From a virus, in IMG/VR virus record IMGVR_UViG_3300042868_000981, positions 1-26,934 of that record: a DNA stretch of 26,934 bases. The stretch is one strand, 5' to 3'. The notes beneath the pieces are model-generated. The model made no database searches and had not been told where the DNA came from. It saw nothing but the letters and a program-made list of their open reading frames with translations. This document shows, piece after piece, positions 5,738 through 23,658 of the stretch; the stretch's first letter is position 1, and each line of letters starts with the position of its first letter. Made by a program: the position numbers and the translations under genes.

Positions 5738-6238
5738 TTAGCCGTGGTTGGCAAATTCTTGATATGTCATTTCTCTTGCTAACACAACAAAGTCTTTAGC
5801 ATCTTCCAAGTCTACAAAGTATCCAAGATTTTTGTTTTTTCCATTTACTCGAATACAAGCATTCCATTTATTAGATTTTTTTGCCCACGATACACCTTTA
5901 ACGCCAGACTTGTTTGCTTTTGTTCGAAATTGATTCGCACAGTTTTGACTTGGTGTGGCGGCTCTTAAATTGTCAATGTGATTATTTTGCTTATCACCAT
6001 CGATGTGGTCAACAGTAACAGGGTTAAATTTATAAACCATGTAAAACAAGATTCTATGGACTTGCCAAGGTATGGCGTTCAAAAATACCAACCTGTATGC
6101 GCCGCTATTAGAACCCGCCAATTCTCCAGCCTTTACCCTGCTGCTTCTTTGCACTTTGTTGTACAGCAATCCATCTTTGATTTCAAAGACAGAATGCAAA
6201 TAATCGTAATCAGGAAAAAAGGCTCGTCTTGCTGCCAT
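5738..6238 (-). CDS. HNH homing endonuclease with AP2-type DNA-binding domain
   Basis: A 166-residue free-standing endonuclease. The HNH core lies at about residues 58-100: H61 (VHRILF), D77-H78 (VDHIDGD), N86-H87 and N90 (NNHIDNLR). It is followed by an AP2-like domain at about 111-155 (SGVKGVSWAKKSNKWNACIR ... GYFVDLEDA). Such genes nick or cut DNA at a target in genomes lacking the gene and spread by repair. It starts 3 bases after one fibre gene and ends 11 bases before the next. It is visibly more AT-rich than its neighbours, which suggests recent acquisition. All core residues appear intact. Confidence 0.9.
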   Translation of the reverse strand: MAARRAFFPDYDYLHSVFEIKDGLLYNKVQRSSRVKAGELAGSNSGAYRLVFLNAIPWQVHRILFYMVYKFNPVTVDHIDGDKQNNHIDNLRAATPSQNCANQFRTKANKSGVKGVSWAKKSNKWNACIRVNGKNKNLGYFVDLEDAKDFVVLAREMTYQEFANHG

Positions 6239-9790: not shown

Positions 9791-10443
9791 TAGACGGCCT
9801 CTTTTTCAAGCTGTTCTTTCATCACCCAAGTGTGCTCATGTCTGAATTCAAATGTGCCAATGTGTCCAATCTCTTTCGAGACATCATGGTCAATATACAC
9901 CTTGAATCCAAGTTCTTGCGCCTTCTTGCAGAAGAACACATCCTCGCCCATGTAGCCGCGAGTGTCGTACTGCCACGGCATATCAAACCATGGCTCAGAC
10001 ATACCCTGAAACACTTCGCGTTTGATTAGCATCACGCCAGTACCAACCGAGCCAACTTCTTCCAATCCAGTGGACTCAGGCATGGTGTAAACCTGTTGGC
10101 GCTTGCCGTTCTCATCGTAATTCTGCGCTGTTGGTCCTGTCGGCATCCGGCGCCGAGCGCAGTTTGTAGCCACGATGTCCACATCATGCGCCAGCAATCT
10201 GCCGATCATGTCTTGTGGGAAAGTCATGTCGGAGTCGATAAATAGAATGTGGCTGCAACCCTCACGCATTGCGTCCAGACACAAATCAGCACGCTGATTC
10301 TGTATCAGTGTGCCTTGCAAGAGCTTGAGGCTGACGGCATCAGTGGTGTTGAGCGTGTGATACGCCACCATGTTTACTAAACAATATGTGTAGTTGGTGT
10401 GGACTTGATCACGCGCTGGAGTACAAACCGCTATGTATTTCAT
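9790..10443 (-). CDS. GT-A-fold glycosyltransferase
   Basis: A 217-residue enzyme starting MKYIAVCTPARDQVHTNYTY. It has features of a family-2-like glycosyltransferase: I-L-F-I-D-S-D-M with the metal-binding DxD at D70-S-D72, a preceding NQRADLCLDAM helix, a VATNCARRR segment, GSVGTGVMLIKREVF, and an acceptor/catalytic GEDVFFCKKA segment near 166. It would transfer a sugar from a nucleotide sugar; the acceptor is unknown. The ATG at 10443 overlaps the HNH stop as ATGA; the longer frame to 10464 only reads through the HNH end. Related genes in phage structural modules are thought to modify virion or host glycans, not proven here. Confidence 0.85.
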   Translation of the reverse strand: MKYIAVCTPARDQVHTNYTYCLVNMVAYHTLNTTDAVSLKLLQGTLIQNQRADLCLDAMREGCSHILFIDSDMTFPQDMIGRLLAHDVDIVATNCARRRMPTGPTAQNYDENGKRQQVYTMPESTGLEEVGSVGTGVMLIKREVFQGMSEPWFDMPWQYDTRGYMGEDVFFCKKAQELGFKVYIDHDVSKEIGHIGTFEFRHEHTWVMKEQLEKEAV

Positions 10444-10904
10444 GCTTTCTCCAAATGTTTCCATAGATTGCCGTTTTTGATTTCACGAATCATTGATGCT
10501 GAATAGTTAAATTTAGCAGCCAACTTTATAGATGTTTCCAAGCTAGATTTAATTTCACGCACTTGATCTTCTGTTAATTTTGCATTGCCATGATTGATGC
10601 CTTTGGCTTGTCTGTTTTTTAGCATTTTGTCCGTCATATTATTTTGTTGTGTTCCTATAAAAATATGATCTGGATTTACGCAGCACCTTACATCGCAATG
10701 ATGTAAAGCCATCATTCCACTAGGTATAGTCCCATGCTTTTGCTCGTATGACACTCTATGTGCATAAAAAGGCTTTTTGCCAGAGCAAACTCTGCCATAC
10801 CCACTTTTTTCAATTGTGGACATCCATATCCAGCAACCAGATTCTGGTATTCGGGTTATGTTTCTTTCTATTTTTTCAGAAAGAGGAATTCTTGGTCTTG
10901 CCAT
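10440..10904 (-). CDS. HNH homing endonuclease (HNH_3 type)
   Basis: A 154-residue endonuclease starting MARPRIPLSEKIERN. An N-terminal CWIWM turn, then A-H-R-V-S-Y-E, then M-A-L-H-H-C-D, V-R-C-C-V-N-P-D-H-I form the HNH_3 core with Cys residues that can bind a structural zinc. The C-terminal part (AKLTEDQVREIKSSLE, then LAAKFNYSASMIREIKNG) is a helix-turn-helix DNA-binding module typical of phage HNH proteins. ATG 10904 overlaps the preceding stop as TGATG; an in-frame TTG at 10907 is less likely. It is AT-rich and separates the 104-residue gene from the glycosyltransferase, as expected of an inserted free-standing homing gene. Confidence 0.9.
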   Translation of the reverse strand: MARPRIPLSEKIERNITRIPESGCWIWMSTIEKSGYGRVCSGKKPFYAHRVSYEQKHGTIPSGMMALHHCDVRCCVNPDHIFIGTQQNNMTDKMLKNRQAKGINHGNAKLTEDQVREIKSSLETSIKLAAKFNYSASMIREIKNGNLWKHLEKA

Positions 10905-11218
10905 CAAACTTTACCTGGTCTTACTCTGAAAAACCTGTTGTCAAAATCGTTTAACCATTTCTTCATGTAAACCGGATCATCAATCTTGCCCTCGGCCTTC
11001 AACTGAAAGTAAATGGACTCAGGAATGCTGGCAACATGATGCCATTCACCCTTCCAATTTGCTTTGTTGTCGATGGTGGCAAAGTCGCGCTTGTTGGCCT
11101 CAATGACAGCAGTCAAATCCTGAGTTGTCTGAATCGTTGCCTCATCAGTGTCCTCGTTGTAGTGCCAAGTGCGTGTGATCCCTTTGTCAGGGCTTGCATC
11201 AAAAAATCGTTTTTCCAT
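10904..11218 (-). CDS. Conserved phage protein downstream of capsid gene
   Basis: A 104-residue mixed protein with MEKRFFDASPDKGITRTWHY, TQDLTAVIEANKRDF, then WKGEWHHVASIPESIYFQL, and FDNRFFRVRPGKV at its C-terminus. Proteins of this pattern lie beside the major capsid gene in many tailed phages, and their function has not been established. It begins about 45 bases after the capsid gene, past a strong hairpin. No catalytic signature is seen. Possibly a head completion or virion-associated protein. Confidence 0.65.
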   Translation of the reverse strand: MEKRFFDASPDKGITRTWHYNEDTDEATIQTTQDLTAVIEANKRDFATIDNKANWKGEWHHVASIPESIYFQLKAEGKIDDPVYMKKWLNDFDNRFFRVRPGKV

Positions 11219-18485: not shown

Positions 18486-19961
18486 TTATGCAACCCTTGA
18501 GAGGTTTCTTTTCAAGGGTTGCGCCCAGTTGTTGCCAGCCTTCGATCCCATCATGCCGATCACTGCATCTGATGCAAAGGTCAAACAGAACGCATCAGCC
18601 TTGTCAGGTGAGGCCAAACCCCGCTTTTTGATCTCATCTTTGCTCTCGATCTGAATCTTGCCGTTGGAAGTAAACATATACCTCACGGTCGCCAACTCAG
18701 CAATCAGCAGCTCATCCTTTGGCAGACGGCAGTCCCGCTGCTCCAACCACGCCTTGGCCTTGTACCAAAGCTCAGCCTTCAGATTGCGATAAGTACCGCC
18801 CATGGCCGGTGACTCCGCCACATTGATTCCTCTGGCTGGTAACTTCAACTCCCGCAGCCGGTCAACCACGCCAGCGCCAAGTCCAATGCTGTCCACCAGT
18901 ATCTCGGTTGGACGGTCGCTTGAGGCCAAAGCCTCGTACTCAGCCACCACCGCACCGGTCAACTGCATCAGGTCTAGATTCTTCCATGTCTTGATCGGCT
19001 CAGTCACCGCATTGCCGCGCCGCTTGCACAGCGCAGATCGGTCAGAGCCAAAGCGTGCCACATCCAATCCCCAGACCAGTGGCGCGTAAGGCGAGCCTTC
19101 AACATCCCGATTCATCGCCAAGTCCAGCAACTCCATCGGTATCACCGTGTCTTCGTCACTCTTAGGGAATTCACCCAGCACGCGGATTCGGTAGGCGTTG
19201 GACTCCTCACCGTACCGCGCCTTCATCTCCTCGATGTACGCCTCAGACACCCTTGGCGAGTCGGCGCAGGACACCTTCATCGTCACCCAATCACCGGCCA
19301 ACCGATTGTGGGTGTCGTAGAAGAAGCCGCTGGAGCGCACCGGATTACCGAGTAACAGCGTCACGGCGTTATGTCCGGACATTGAGCCGGAAGCCGCCTC
19401 AAAGACCTTCTCAGGTATGCCGGATGCCTCATCCCCCACCAGCATCACATGATCACTGTGAACCCCTTGCAAGGCTTCGGGCTGCTCGGCACGCGATGTT
19501 CTGGCTGAGATAAACGCCTCCTCGTTTGCGCCAATTACCTCAATGCGGTCCTGCTTCACATCCAACATATCGGCCAGCATTGGCGGCAACACCTTCACCC
19601 AACGCTTAACCTCGGCAAACAAGGCATCGTAGAGCTGGCTGCTGGTAGGCGCTGTGACCACCACCTTGACCGGAAAGCGCAGCAGCAAGTACCAAATCAT
19701 CGCCCAAGCACTGGCTGTGGACTTGCCGACACCGTGACCTGATCTCACGCTGATGCGTCTGCTTCCTGACGCAATGTGATTCAAGAATTCCACTTGCCAA
19801 GGGTCAGGCTCAGTGTTAAGGACTTCCTTAACAAACAGGACAGGGTTATTCTTGTACAGCTTGACGAATTCGACAAAAGGGTTATTCGTCAGCAAGTCCT
19901 CGGAATTTTTTTTCGGGACGCGCTTTTTCGCGGTAGGGGTGGTGGGGGTCGGGTCAGTCAT
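18486..19961 (-). CDS. terL: Terminase large subunit
   Basis: A 491-residue packaging motor. The ATPase half has Walker A SGHGVGKST (74-82), a coupling/C-motif-like TLLLGNP (201-207) and Walker B with the catalytic acid in MLVGDEASG (173-181). The nuclease half is RNase H-like with acidic residues D300 (WGLDVARFG), D357 (LVDSIGLGAG) and D453/D456 (SPDKADAFCL). It uses ATP to drive DNA into proheads through the portal and cuts genome ends. Length and domain order are complete. No clear ribosome site lies before ATG 19961, and the long spacer upstream separates it from terS. Confidence 0.95.
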   Translation of the reverse strand: MTDPTPTTPTAKKRVPKKNSEDLLTNNPFVEFVKLYKNNPVLFVKEVLNTEPDPWQVEFLNHIASGSRRISVRSGHGVGKSTASAWAMIWYLLLRFPVKVVVTAPTSSQLYDALFAEVKRWVKVLPPMLADMLDVKQDRIEVIGANEEAFISARTSRAEQPEALQGVHSDHVMLVGDEASGIPEKVFEAASGSMSGHNAVTLLLGNPVRSSGFFYDTHNRLAGDWVTMKVSCADSPRVSEAYIEEMKARYGEESNAYRIRVLGEFPKSDEDTVIPMELLDLAMNRDVEGSPYAPLVWGLDVARFGSDRSALCKRRGNAVTEPIKTWKNLDLMQLTGAVVAEYEALASSDRPTEILVDSIGLGAGVVDRLRELKLPARGINVAESPAMGGTYRNLKAELWYKAKAWLEQRDCRLPKDELLIAELATVRYMFTSNGKIQIESKDEIKKRGLASPDKADAFCLTFASDAVIGMMGSKAGNNWAQPLKRNLSRVA

Positions 19962-20268
19962 TTCGGTAGGTGTTTAGGTGCGTCATCAACCGCCCCCGCC
20001 GCAAAGCGCAAGGGGGGGCATCGCGCCGCGCCAGCCAGCAGGCCGGTCACCGCGGCCACTTGACAGTGGGAAAGTTATCCACATGGCACTATATCGGTAA
20101 GTCATTGATTCATATGCTTTCTTACAGATTGCTTACATAATCCATTTAACACGATGTCCATTATGTTAAGTCAAATGTGGATAACTGGCCTGTTTCTGCT
20201 CAATTAGCAGGCGCTTTGCAGTTATGCACAGGCCAGTGTGCTCAACCATTGCGATTTTCTGTGGATAA
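19962..20268. other. Candidate replication origin with four DnaA boxes
   Basis: The non-coding spacer between terS and terL, reaching into the terS 3' end. It carries four 9-mers fitting TTATNCACA: TTATCCACA at 20075-20083 (+), its reverse complement TGTGGATAA at 20176-20184 and 20260-20268 (-), and TTATGCACA at 20222-20230 (+). Between boxes one and two lies an AT-rich stretch (about 20085-20175), a possible unwinding element. A GC-rich block with a run of seven G (19985-20060) precedes them. Host DnaA could bind here. The same spacer could also hold the packaging (cos/pac) site. Confidence 0.6.
20184..20237. repeat. 10-bp inverted repeat between DnaA boxes
   Basis: ACTGGCCTGT (20184-20193) and its perfect reverse complement ACAGGCCAGT (20228-20237). 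Each arm touches or overlaps one of the DnaA-box sequences (20176-20184 and 20222-20230). A smaller stem CTGCT/AGCAG (20196-20200, 20206-20210) lies in the loop. No U-tract follows, so it is not a terminator. It fits a protein-binding site or structured origin/packaging element. Confidence 0.6.
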
Positions 20269-20673
20269 GTCATCGACAACCTCGACATGGCGCAAAGCCG
20301 CCATGCGTAAGTCTTGGATGTTGATGTTGACTGAAGCCGCTTTTTGTAAGCCGTAAGTCTTCTGATCCCACCTTTCGGCCAGCCATTGCCGAGTGCGGAT
20401 GCGCTGGACATCGCGCTGCGGATTGCTGTCGGCCATGCTGTCTGCTATGTCCAGAGTCTCCACCGCGAGCTTATCTGCGGCCTTCGCACGCGCACGCGTG
20501 ATTATAGTGGGATCAGTATCTTCGATCCACTGCTCGAGTGACCTGCGCCCAATGCCAAGCTCATAGCAAATCTGCGTCTGCGACTTGCCGACTTCAAGCA
20601 TCGAAATGATCATGTCATCTGGCAAATCCTCAAGCAGCGCCATGTCTTGCCTGAATTTAGGTCTACCTGGCAC
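20242..20673 (-). CDS. terS: Terminase small subunit-like protein
   Basis: A 143-residue protein beginning PGRPKF with a GTG start at 20673, 2 bases after the stop of a 29-residue ORF. An N-terminal helix-turn-helix lies at about 28-50 (KSQTQICYELGIGRRSLEQW), followed by helices (ARAKAADKLAVETLDIADSM) and RDVQRIRTRQWLAERWDQKTY, a pattern of small terminase and terminase-small-like phage proteins. It would bind the packaging site and hand DNA to TerL. The gene lies just upstream of terL but is separated by the DnaA-box spacer. An internal ATG (11) is a less likely start. Confidence 0.82.
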   Translation of the reverse strand: MPGRPKFRQDMALLEDLPDDMIISMLEVGKSQTQICYELGIGRRSLEQWIEDTDPTIITRARAKAADKLAVETLDIADSMADSNPQRDVQRIRTRQWLAERWDQKTYGLQKAASVNINIQDLRMAALRHVEVVDDLSTENRNG

Positions 20674-20675
20674 GC

Positions 20676-20765
20676 TCAGACCCGCTTTAAAGCTGTTTTT
20701 ACACGCTGGACGATGTCCAGTACCTTTTCCTTGATCAAGTTTGCTAATCGCTTAATTTGTTCCAT
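20676..20765 (-). CDS. Possible 29-residue cationic amphipathic peptide
   Basis: A short ORF, MEQIKRLANLIKEKVLDIVQ continuing R-V-K-T-A-L-K-R-V, with ATG at 20765 and GGAG ten bases upstream. It overlaps the previous gene's end by 14 bases and stops 2 bases before the terS GTG. The peptide would be one amphipathic helix with Lys/Arg on one face. Tight spacing and a ribosome site support translation; it could also only serve to couple terS translation. No homologue is claimed. Confidence 0.4.
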   Translation of the reverse strand: MEQIKRLANLIKEKVLDIVQRVKTALKRV

Positions 20766-21429
20766 GTTTGTATTTCTCCGCTTGTTTGCTGTTGAATTTC
20801 ATCTCTGGCTGATTGCCTTCAAAGGCATGAAGATCGTTTTCCATGTCATCAAAGCCTGATTGTCCACCGAATTTCTCGTTTGCTTTGAAGCTGACCACCT
20901 TGGCTGTTGGATCAAACGCCTTGACCGCAATGACTTGTTGCACAAAGGGATCATTGAAGATCACCTCCAACTCTTCCATTGACCAAATGCACTTGTTGTC
21001 CAGTTCCTGTCTTTCTCGTTGCATAGCCAAAGTCTCGTTAACCGTTCTGACAATCACCATAACCTGACCTGACTGCATCTCCCACTCGATCCTCGGAATG
21101 CTGTCGCTGGCTGGACTCATGCCTTGATCGTTTGCCCACTGATCGAGCACTGCATACGCTCGGACCATTCCCGCCAAACTGGAATCAAACTTCGCACGAT
21201 CCTTTGCGTCAATCGCTTGGTGCAATCTGCCGTTCTGAATCCAGAATTTCTCTCTGAGTCCACTGTCTACTAAAGTAATCAGTCGATTTTCTCCCCATTT
21301 CCTGTCGCTAGATGCTTTGGCGGCCTCCAACTCCACCAACTTGGATTGCACATAAACCGTCCACGCATCTGCCTGTGGACTTGGACTCACCGCCACTGGA
21401 TGCTGTCTTGAGCTTTTCTTTGTTGCCAT
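20752..21429 (-). CDS. Unknown protein upstream of terminase
   Basis: A 225-residue soluble protein. A helical N-terminal half (WTVYVQSKLVELEAAKASSD, RLHQAIDAKDRAKFDSSLAG, VRAYAVLDQWANDQG) is followed by a strand pair (IEWEMQSGQVMVIVRTVNE) and a helical region with CIWSMEELEVIFNDPFVQQV. The C-terminus is polar and Lys/Gln-rich. No known domain was recognised. An AAGGAT ribosome site precedes ATG 21429, and the upstream primase gene ends about 45 bases before. Position between replication and packaging genes allows a role in either. Confidence 0.75.
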   Translation of the reverse strand: MATKKSSRQHPVAVSPSPQADAWTVYVQSKLVELEAAKASSDRKWGENRLITLVDSGLREKFWIQNGRLHQAIDAKDRAKFDSSLAGMVRAYAVLDQWANDQGMSPASDSIPRIEWEMQSGQVMVIVRTVNETLAMQRERQELDNKCIWSMEELEVIFNDPFVQQVIAVKAFDPTAKVVSFKANEKFGGQSGFDDMENDLHAFEGNQPEMKFNSKQAEKYKHGTN

Positions 21430-21474: not shown

Positions 21475-23658
21475 TCAGAAACTACGAGTCTTATAGACTC
21501 TCGTTTCCGATTCTGATTTCTGATCATCTGAAGCGTCTGATTTCTGATCGCTTCTGATCGCTTCTGATTGCTGATTGTTAAATTTGTAAGCCGCCTCACT
21601 TGCCATTTTTGTCAAAACATCTTGGTTAAGCCATGCGACTTTGCCGTGATGTCCACCCAATTTTTTAGTTTTAAGTCTCCCCTTTGCTGTCCAAATTGCG
21701 TTACTGATTTGCGTCTTTGTAGCGTCATAGGCGCTGGCTTGTAGCGTCAATTCTTCTTTCCAGTCATCAATATTGACCACCTTCAGGCTTACGCCATCTA
21801 TTACATCAGTGAATCCTTTGTTCTTAATTGCCCTATATAGTGCTGGCAACTCATATGGCTGCCATTTGCCACCATCTTTGTTGGCTGGTGGCTTTTTCTC
21901 GGTCATCTTTGTGTGATCTGTTTTGGCTGAATCTGACGCTTGCACCGCCAAACTGGTCATTGGGTCACCGATTTGCAGTGATCCGGCTGACGCTGCCAGT
22001 TCGACTTTGACCATTTCAAAGCCGTAGCGAGTGCCGTCTTCGCCGTCCTTTTGCTTGGCGGTTCTGATGATGCCCTTCATAGAATCCTCAAACCTGATCA
22101 ACTCCAGTTCGGTATCCACAGCACCTAGCAACGCTGACGATCCCCGCATCCCTTTGGCCGAGTCCTTGCCGCTGTGATGCAGAATCATCAGCGCAGCGCC
22201 TTGCACGATCTTCTGTATGTGTCCACAGGTCACCACAAACTGCATCATGTCGCTGGCTGAGTTCTCGTCCCCACCGCCAAACGCTCGCGCCAGCGTATCC
22301 ACAACGATCAACTTAAAGTCGATGCCTGTTTCCATTACCAGCGTCTCTACGGCCAGCATGAGCGCGTTGAAGTCTTCCACGCTGGCTCTGAGGTTTAGTT
22401 GATGTCTGATCACATAGATCGGCGCACCGTCCTCGGTTTGGTGGTGCTGCTTGCACGCCTTAATCCTTGCGCCGACTCCCCCGAACCCTTCACCGGCTAT
22501 ATATAAAACAGCGCCGGATTCTGTGACTTCGTTGCCCATCCACGGTGTACCTGTGGCAATACAGTGAGCAATATGAAGAGCGTGGAAACTTTTAAAACTA
22601 CCTGGCGGTCCATAGAGTGCGCTGAAACTACCCACAGGCAGCACCTTATCTATCAGCCACTTCACCGGCTCATCTTGGATCGAGTCCCAATGCTCGATGG
22701 CGATGTGCTTGGCAGGCTTTGGTGGTGCTGTCGGCTCTGCCTCAAATTCCTTGGCGATGTCTTCGGCCGGCGCTGTCAGTTCCTGCACCGCACTCGCAAT
22801 TGAATTCATCACAGGATTCAATCGTTCGGGCATCGTTAGCTGATCCAGCGATGTGATGACTGCTGCCGCCTTGACCAGCGCCACTAGCTTGTCCCTGCCG
22901 CCACCCTCTTCGATAAATTCATAGGCATCGTCACCCTGACCTTGCAGTCCGAGGTCAACTACCTTGAGTGACTTGACGATGGGCAGTATTGCTTCGGCTG
23001 CTTTGTAGGCATAGCCCCAACCGGCCACATCGTTGTCGGGCAAGATGATGACTTGAGCGCCAGCGAAATACTCGGTGATGGCGGCAGGCCAGCTTCCAGC
23101 GCCAGTGTGCGCGGTGCTGGCGATCATGCCAATTGACTTGATGGCATCGGCTGCCTTCTCGCCTTCAACTAGGAAGATGTTTCTGCCTGCGGTCTTCGCG
23201 TCCAAGAGTGCCGGTAAGTTGTAGGGGACTATGCGTGCATCTGACAGCGTGCTCTGCTTTCTGCCGTGCTCATCAATCTTGTACAGGCGGTAAGTCTTGC
23301 CTGACTCGCCTACCTTTAGGCGCTGCTTGACGAATACCGGCTGACGGTCTTCATCGGTGTAAATCCATTCCTGTTGGAATTCCACCTTTGGAATCGGCTT
23401 AATGTTAGCGAGTGGGTCTGGTCTTTCCAAGAGTTCCGGTAACAAGTTCAATGCTCTGATGGTGTGGAAGACATCTTCTTGGCTGCACCCACCATGGCAG
23501 TGAAAGAGAGGCTTGCCCTCATCATTGATGTCTATGCTGAGGGATGGATTCTTGTCGCCGTTGCCTTTGCCGTGACTCGGTACAGGGCAAGATGCTACCC
23601 ACTGACCGTTTGCTTTCTTTGCGTTGCCGAGCTGCTTGGCTATTTGTTCTGCTTGCAT
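21475..23658 (-). CDS. Primase-helicase, Toprim plus RepA-like ATPase
   Basis: A 727-residue replication protein. A zinc-binding part has C24, H29, C54 and C58 (VASCPVPSH ... LFHCHGGC). A Toprim domain follows, with E165 in FLVEGEKAADAI and D208/D210 in ILPDNDVAGWG. A RecA-like ATPase has Walker A GPPGSFKS (350-357), Walker B LIVVDTLARAF (450-460) and MILHHSGKDSAKGMRGSSAL, as in RepA/DnaB-type helicases. It likely primes and unwinds DNA at the fork. The C-terminal tail is polar and encoded by short DNA repeats. GGAGAAG precedes ATG 23658. The first residues MQAEQIA are duplicated in the ORF just upstream. Confidence 0.93.
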   Translation of the reverse strand: MQAEQIAKQLGNAKKANGQWVASCPVPSHGKGNGDKNPSLSIDINDEGKPLFHCHGGCSQEDVFHTIRALNLLPELLERPDPLANIKPIPKVEFQQEWIYTDEDRQPVFVKQRLKVGESGKTYRLYKIDEHGRKQSTLSDARIVPYNLPALLDAKTAGRNIFLVEGEKAADAIKSIGMIASTAHTGAGSWPAAITEYFAGAQVIILPDNDVAGWGYAYKAAEAILPIVKSLKVVDLGLQGQGDDAYEFIEEGGGRDKLVALVKAAAVITSLDQLTMPERLNPVMNSIASAVQELTAPAEDIAKEFEAEPTAPPKPAKHIAIEHWDSIQDEPVKWLIDKVLPVGSFSALYGPPGSFKSFHALHIAHCIATGTPWMGNEVTESGAVLYIAGEGFGGVGARIKACKQHHQTEDGAPIYVIRHQLNLRASVEDFNALMLAVETLVMETGIDFKLIVVDTLARAFGGGDENSASDMMQFVVTCGHIQKIVQGAALMILHHSGKDSAKGMRGSSALLGAVDTELELIRFEDSMKGIIRTAKQKDGEDGTRYGFEMVKVELAASAGSLQIGDPMTSLAVQASDSAKTDHTKMTEKKPPANKDGGKWQPYELPALYRAIKNKGFTDVIDGVSLKVVNIDDWKEELTLQASAYDATKTQISNAIWTAKGRLKTKKLGGHHGKVAWLNQDVLTKMASEAAYKFNNQQSEAIRSDQKSDASDDQKSESETRVYKTRSF
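21512..21577. repeat. Iteron-like TTCTGAT repeat cluster at primase 3' end
   Basis: A 14-bp unit (TCTGATTTCTGATC) occurs at 21512-21525 and 21536-21549. It is followed by tandem 10-bp units TTCTGATCGC at 21542-21551 and 21552-21561, and TTCTGATTGC at 21562-21571. Inverted copies (TCAGAA, ATCAGAA) lie at about 21467-21480, after the stop. The repeats encode the polar Ser/Asp/Gln tail of the primase. A hairpin GAGTCT/AGACTC (21486-21500) sits beside them. Confidence 0.7.

Follow-up and report, generated by a model that had tools for sequence, protein, structure and literature searches.

The general view is that a tailed phage encodes a recombinase of its own and, in many cases, an initiator as well. 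DnaA-dependent origins include pSC101 ori, P1 oriR, and bacterial oriC, and phage P1 carries Cre-lox near pac, which circularizes its terminally redundant genome. Sites for the host recombinases XerC and XerD are 28 bp long, with a better conserved XerD arm and a center that is not conserved (PMC11724359), and the dif site of Rhodoferax ferrireducens is ACTTGATACGA-TGTATA-TTATGTTAAGT (PMC2731167). CTXphi, gokushoviruses, and non-tailed phages of Vibrio use a dif-like site together with host XerCD without having an integrase of their own (PMC7062461; PMC9966536). Origins with DnaA boxes, Xer resolution sites, and phages that use dif are each already known, and a search of the literature that covered it in part, and is weak evidence, found no description of a combined DnaA-Xer module in tailed phages. 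We describe here such a module, which is found in many freshwater phages, and we favor with moderate confidence the explanation that it is a cis-acting element of about 200 bp in which a DnaA-dependent origin is fused to a resolution or circularization site for host XerCD.

The window that we analyzed comprises an entire IMG/VR record (26,934 bases), with most of the predicted genes carried on the minus strand. Pfam and PHROG searches place the terminase large subunit gene, terL, at 18486-19961 (minus strand), and an Sf6-like terminase small subunit gene, terS, lies at 20242-20673 (minus strand; PF20901, E=1.5e-11; phrog_1482). Beyond these are a 225-aa gene at 20752-21429 (minus strand), for which no Pfam or PHROG family was matched, and a gene for a RepA-like primase-helicase at 21475-23658 (minus strand; PF13481, phrog_906/239). 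Further genes code for an SU10-like portal, a Cas4-like exonuclease, a RuvC-like resolvase, and an HTH protein. Searches of the window and of six near-complete relatives revealed neither a tyrosine recombinase or integrase nor ParA, and the lambda-O-type initiator (phrog_391) is absent from the near-complete relatives G001-G006. Two AT-rich open reading frames among the structural genes (5738-6238 and 10440-10907, minus strand) have the look of HNH-type endonucleases, as judged by eye.

A cluster of DnaA boxes upstream of terL

The initial annotation of this DNA had reported four TTATNCACA boxes at 20075-20268, clustered beyond chance and lying between terS and terL. The positions and the clustering are confirmed. 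With offsets given from the Xer core described below, box 1 (TTATCCACA, 20260-20268, minus strand) is at -99, box 2 (TTATGCACA, 20222-20230, plus strand; TTATCCACA or TTGTCCACA in relatives) at -61, box 3 (TTATCCACA, 20176-20184, minus strand) at -15, and box 4 (TTATCCACA, 20075-20083, plus strand), the least conserved of the four, at +86. Three of them lie in the 280-bp spacer before terL, but box 1 is inside the 3' end of terS, and the placement between the two genes holds for the other three. A fifth match to TTATNCACA is distant from the cluster, at 10759-10767 (minus strand). Shuffled windows contain a mean of 1.0 matches and a maximum of 4, with at least five in none of 100 shuffles, and not one of 600 Markov copies of the window has three or more boxes within 200 bp.

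The boxes adjoin a 92-bp stretch at 20084-20175 that is a possible unwinding region, as is expected of an origin. It is 67% AT, which places it in the top 1% of 92-bp windows and bears out the AT-richness remarked on earlier, with an equal AT content being reached at about nine other places in the window. A 10-bp inverted repeat (20184-20193 and 20228-20237) that had been counted among the origin-like features is indeed present, but it is not kept in relatives.

Conservation of the boxes was assessed in 80 relative loci collected by TerL alone, which are related to one another, such that counts among them are not independent events. In the 38 kb just upstream of terL these loci contain 193 boxes, and in their remaining 483 kb there is no match to TTATNCACA. 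The distances from box to box are fixed at 38, 46, and 101 bp, whereas the gap to terL varies. Box 1 keeps all nine bases, including those at synonymous codon positions of terS, in every TerL relative that is long enough, and the substitutions seen in boxes are of the kinds that DnaA boxes tolerate (TTATCCACA, TTATGCACA, TTGTCCACA). The initial annotation had proposed an alignment of the spacer in related phages, and among close relatives the boxes prove to be kept in both position and kind.

A GC-rich inverted stem (CCCCCC...GGCGGGGG) at 19990-20020 is also conserved and may not belong to the module. It lacks a T-run, lies directly before terL, and is followed by a conserved CACCTAAACACC; the contigs of three relatives break close to it.

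A candidate XerC/XerD site in the AT-rich stretch

The most conserved block of the terS-terL spacer is a 28-mer at 20144-20171 (plus strand), which is composed of a XerC arm, ATTTAACACGA (20144-20154), a center, TGTCCA (20155-20160), and a XerD arm, TTATGTTAAGT (20161-20171). It matches the R. ferrireducens dif site at 23 of 28 positions, compared with 18 for the runner-up place in the window and a maximum of 18 in 20 Markov copies. The two 11-bp arms and the 6-bp center conform to the architecture of XerCD sites, which have a total length of 28-30 bp, arms of 11 bp, and a center of 6-8 bp. Among cores of group A (the phages with the window's terminase) sampled by TerL, entropy is lowest in the XerD arm (0.19), followed by the XerC arm (0.41) and the center (0.49), and the core thus agrees with published rules for XerCD sites in its 28-bp length, its better conserved XerD arm, and its variable center. 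Judged by its sequence, the AT-rich stretch contains a XerC/XerD site, the center of the element, which the initial annotation had overlooked. The possibility that terL has its sigma-70 -35 box at the position of the core was considered and rejected, the TTGAC start not being kept in relatives.

The AT-rich stretch also holds a match to the IHF consensus, WATCAANNNNTTR, at 20098-20110 (minus strand). This IHF-like site is at +59/60 in 48 of 64 group A modules, and at +69/70 in all 15 group B modules.

The core also bears on the identity of the host. One Rhodoferax genome with a related core has ACTTTATACGATGTATATTATGTTAAGT as its own dif, from which the core of a group D phage, ACTTTATACAATGTCCATTATGTTAAGT, differs at 3 of 28 positions. 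Two other genomes with a dif ending in TTATGTTAATA carry elements whose core has the same ending, and similar dif sites are present in 34 of 101 genomes of the Rhodoferax genome's family. From this resemblance between phage cores and dif, a Burkholderiales host is likely.

The strong resemblance to dif, together with the lack of an integrase gene, raises the alternative that the core is an attP at which XerCD would integrate the phage into host dif, as for CTXphi or gokushoviruses. We consider this highly improbable, because the center is TGTCCA rather than the TGTATA of dif and varies among close relatives, a search of 401 genomes from the family of the Rhodoferax MAG gave no TerL homologue of more than 36% identity (E<=1e-60), and four core hits in bacterial genomes are without a DnaA array and without terminase homologues, and represent other elements. 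Integration at host dif was rejected, as neither host junctions nor prophages were found in the genome collection (401 family genomes in the case of TerL). A center that differs from that of host dif implies rather that the phage site should recombine with its own copies and not with the chromosome, which agrees with the lack of such TerL homologues, of a tyrosine integrase, and of ParA.

Four contigs of proteobacterial, mostly Burkholderiales, genomes (L388, L389, L390, and L391) contain a dif-like core without DnaA boxes and represent other elements that bear a Xer site. The neighbors of the core include integrase genes in L388 and L391, and primase-helicase genes in L389 and L391.

Geometry, gene context, and replacement of the module

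A pattern for the core only was scanned over viral contigs, which together with the earlier loci gives 151 distinct modules; the phages that carry them have terminases of at least three types. Group A has the terminase of the window, group B (L294/L295) a terminase that is unrelated by the search used, and group C a TerL relative (66-76%), while groups D and E have another Sf6-like TerS. In all groups the boxes occupy positions relative to the core that come from one set (about -100, -77, -62, and either -21 or -15), and the upstream sequence outside of the boxes is 24-38% identical between groups, which is near random. One ancestral module could explain the shared geometry, and the groups are not independent samples. 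Distant BLASTN searches found no copy of the module in public plasmid or phage collections.

Box 1 is matched at -100 +/-1 in 86% of 127 modules, and at the box 2 offset (about -62) TT[AGT]TNCACA is present in 101 of 105 distinct modules (96%), compared with 0% at control offsets. Box 3 is at -15 in 43 of 61 group A modules, with a box at -21 instead in other groups, and box 4 is kept in about 43% of group A. Two loci (L061 and L063) have lost box 4 and have an opposite-facing box nearby, and in one sub-clade boxes 1 and 2 are set further apart by an 11-bp insertion, which is close to one turn of the helix.

The 225-aa gene lies upstream of terS in the window and immediately precedes the module in group B. 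Its conservation ahead of either terS or the module is confined to groups A and B, which are also the two groups with the IHF-like site.

The module adjoins terS in all array-bearing groups examined, as might be expected if it were a packaging signal (cos, pac, or the end of a terminal repeat) and the boxes were repeats recognized by terminase that resemble DnaA boxes by chance. A terminal repeat just upstream of terL in phiM5 (TerL 55% identical), the conserved GC-rich stem before terL, and the presence of an IHF-like site are also consistent with this; lambda cosB, too, has an IHF site. However, the module accompanies unrelated terS/terL pairs, lies on either side of terS (upstream rather than downstream in group B), and in groups C and E has the opposite orientation with respect to terS and terL. 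Furthermore, the repeats match the consensus for DnaA boxes and show the variation that is typical of them, and contig ends are scattered there with no pile-up at one nucleotide. A packaging signal is therefore very unlikely, and cos or pac was rejected as the main reading because the module changes both its terminase partner and its orientation. The link between replication start and packaging that had been suggested for this locus is likewise not supported, given the different terminases and the two orientations, although the module is always close to terS.

Two patterns of replacement are seen in relatives. In six core bearers without an array (L400, L466, L425, L467, L461, and L392) a lambda-O-like initiator gene ends 25-40 bp from the core, and of the four array-less core-bearing records scanned, three contain phrog_391, which was found in none of 14 array-bearing records. 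A gamma-delta-type resolvase is encoded upstream of terL in nine of 40 records searched, all of them lacking the core, and in none of 19 core-bearing records. The core-less TerL relatives that encode the resolvase are MW202879 (L488, L498; TerL identity 68%), G435, G436, G438-G441, G443, and G444. Two or three TTATCCACA boxes are close together in MW202879, G435, G436, G440, and G441, and in the three examined (MW202879, G435, and G441) DnaA clusters lie beside repA and apart from the resolvase. Some close core-less TerL relatives have no resolvase or no DnaA cluster, several of these being incomplete contigs. The array trades places with the initiator and the Xer site with the resolvase, and since cores without an array and DnaA clusters without a core both occur, the array and the Xer site are separable. 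These replacements are observed directly, as are the boxes, the Xer site, and their fixed geometry.

In L400, a different terS and terL come after the lambda-O-like initiator gene, and in several core-less TerL relatives short repeats accompany the DnaA boxes beside repA. Four unrelated viral contigs (L204, L235, L248, and L284) carry 14-16 boxes of the DnaA type, most of them in a span of about 600 bp, and lack a dif-like site; they are candidates for other DnaA-dependent phage origins. A distant TerL relative, MW202496.1, has at 28052-28519 an annotated DnaA-type helix-turn-helix protein, possibly a phage-encoded binder of DnaA boxes.

These replacements also bear on whether DnaA is chiefly an architectural accessory for Xer recombination, in the manner of ArgR/ArcA and PepA at cer and psi, with the module being no origin at all. 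The distances between boxes, IHF-like site, and core are fixed and roughly helically phased (-100 versus -111, and +59/60 versus +69/70), as would suit such a role. On the other hand, DnaA clusters near repA persist in core-less relatives, core-bearing phages without boxes exist, and the boxes are on the XerD side, whereas the accessory sites of cer and psi are on the XerC side (PMC11724359). We regard a purely accessory role of this type as unlikely.

Another conceivable role is that of a titration or inactivation site (datA/DARS-like) that disturbs host replication, since datA, too, combines a small number of DnaA boxes with an IHF site. This is extremely doubtful, because next to the core the array trades places with a lambda-O-like initiator, a swap that points to a part in starting replication of the phage itself.

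Predicted roles and comparison with known systems

The swap between array and lambda-O-like initiator and the DnaA clusters beside repA in core-less relatives, together with the conserved boxes, make a host-DnaA-type origin beside a phage primase-helicase the best reading of the array. The initial annotation had proposed such an origin, but it missed the Xer site that lies in the AT-rich stretch. In the combined origin and resolution site that we favor, host DnaA would bind the array (-99, -61, -15, and +86 from the core), aided by an IHF-like bend at +59, and would open the AT-rich DNA such that the phage RepA-like primase-helicase could be loaded. Host XerC and XerD would act on the 28-bp dif-like site inside the same AT-rich segment, either to resolve multimers or to circularize terminally redundant genomes, and would thereby provide a circular template for the origin. 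Both multimer resolution and a P1-style circularization of a terminally redundant genome fit as the purpose of Xer in a phage that has no visible plasmid genes, and circularization would account for the constant proximity of the module to terS. We infer DnaA binding, origin firing, Xer recombination, and the substrate that is resolved, and these phages probably borrow host DnaA and XerC/XerD to start and tidy circular genomes.

Several considerations count against this explanation. In six near-complete relatives the GC skew switches in the vicinity of the boxes rather than at them, 2-3 kb upstream near the helicase gene, a position that speaks weakly against an origin at the boxes. It is not evident why a lytic phage with concatemer packaging would need to resolve multimers, and the conserved boxes are beside the XerD arm, whereas in cer and psi the accessory sequences are beside the XerC arm. 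A more speculative and rather unlikely extension is that array-bound DnaA directly controls XerCD, such that replication start and genome resolution or circularization are one switch; this would constitute a class of Xer control apart from FtsK and ArgR/ArcA-PepA, in tailed phages of freshwater Burkholderiales.

A widespread group of phages appears to keep neither a recombinase nor an initiator of its own, and to rely instead on the module as a small docking platform for DnaA and XerCD, both of them essential systems of the host, with a geometry that is kept across different terminases. The swaps of the array for a lambda-O-like initiator and of the Xer site for a gamma-delta resolvase provide a natural experiment on the role of each half, and they make it testable whether tailed phages that do not integrate need site-specific resolution of their genomes.

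The core has the same organization as the dif/XerCD sites (xrs) of Burkholderiaceae, with an 11-bp XerC arm, a 6-bp center, and an 11-bp XerD arm, but it is phage-borne, is flanked by DnaA boxes, and has the center TGTCCA, which varies among the phages, rather than TGTATA. As in pSC101 ori, P1 oriR, and oriC, DnaA boxes, an IHF-like site, and AT-rich DNA occur together near a helicase gene; this candidate origin differs from them in that the boxes are few and no plasmid Rep initiator or iterons are seen at the locus. The phages known to exploit Xer integrate into dif, whereas the phages described here are tailed dsDNA phages with no sign of integration. P1 Cre-lox is similar in being a site-specific recombination site near packaging genes that is able to circularize a terminally redundant genome, but the P1 recombinase is phage-encoded whereas that used here would be the host's, and terminal redundancy is hypothetical for these phages. 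Finally, pSC101 psi and ColE1 cer likewise have a Xer site adjoining some 100-200 bp of binding sites for accessory proteins, on a circle separate from the chromosome (PMC11724359), but in the module described here DnaA boxes replace the ArgR/ArcA sites, the array is on the XerD side, and the carrier is a tailed phage rather than a plasmid.
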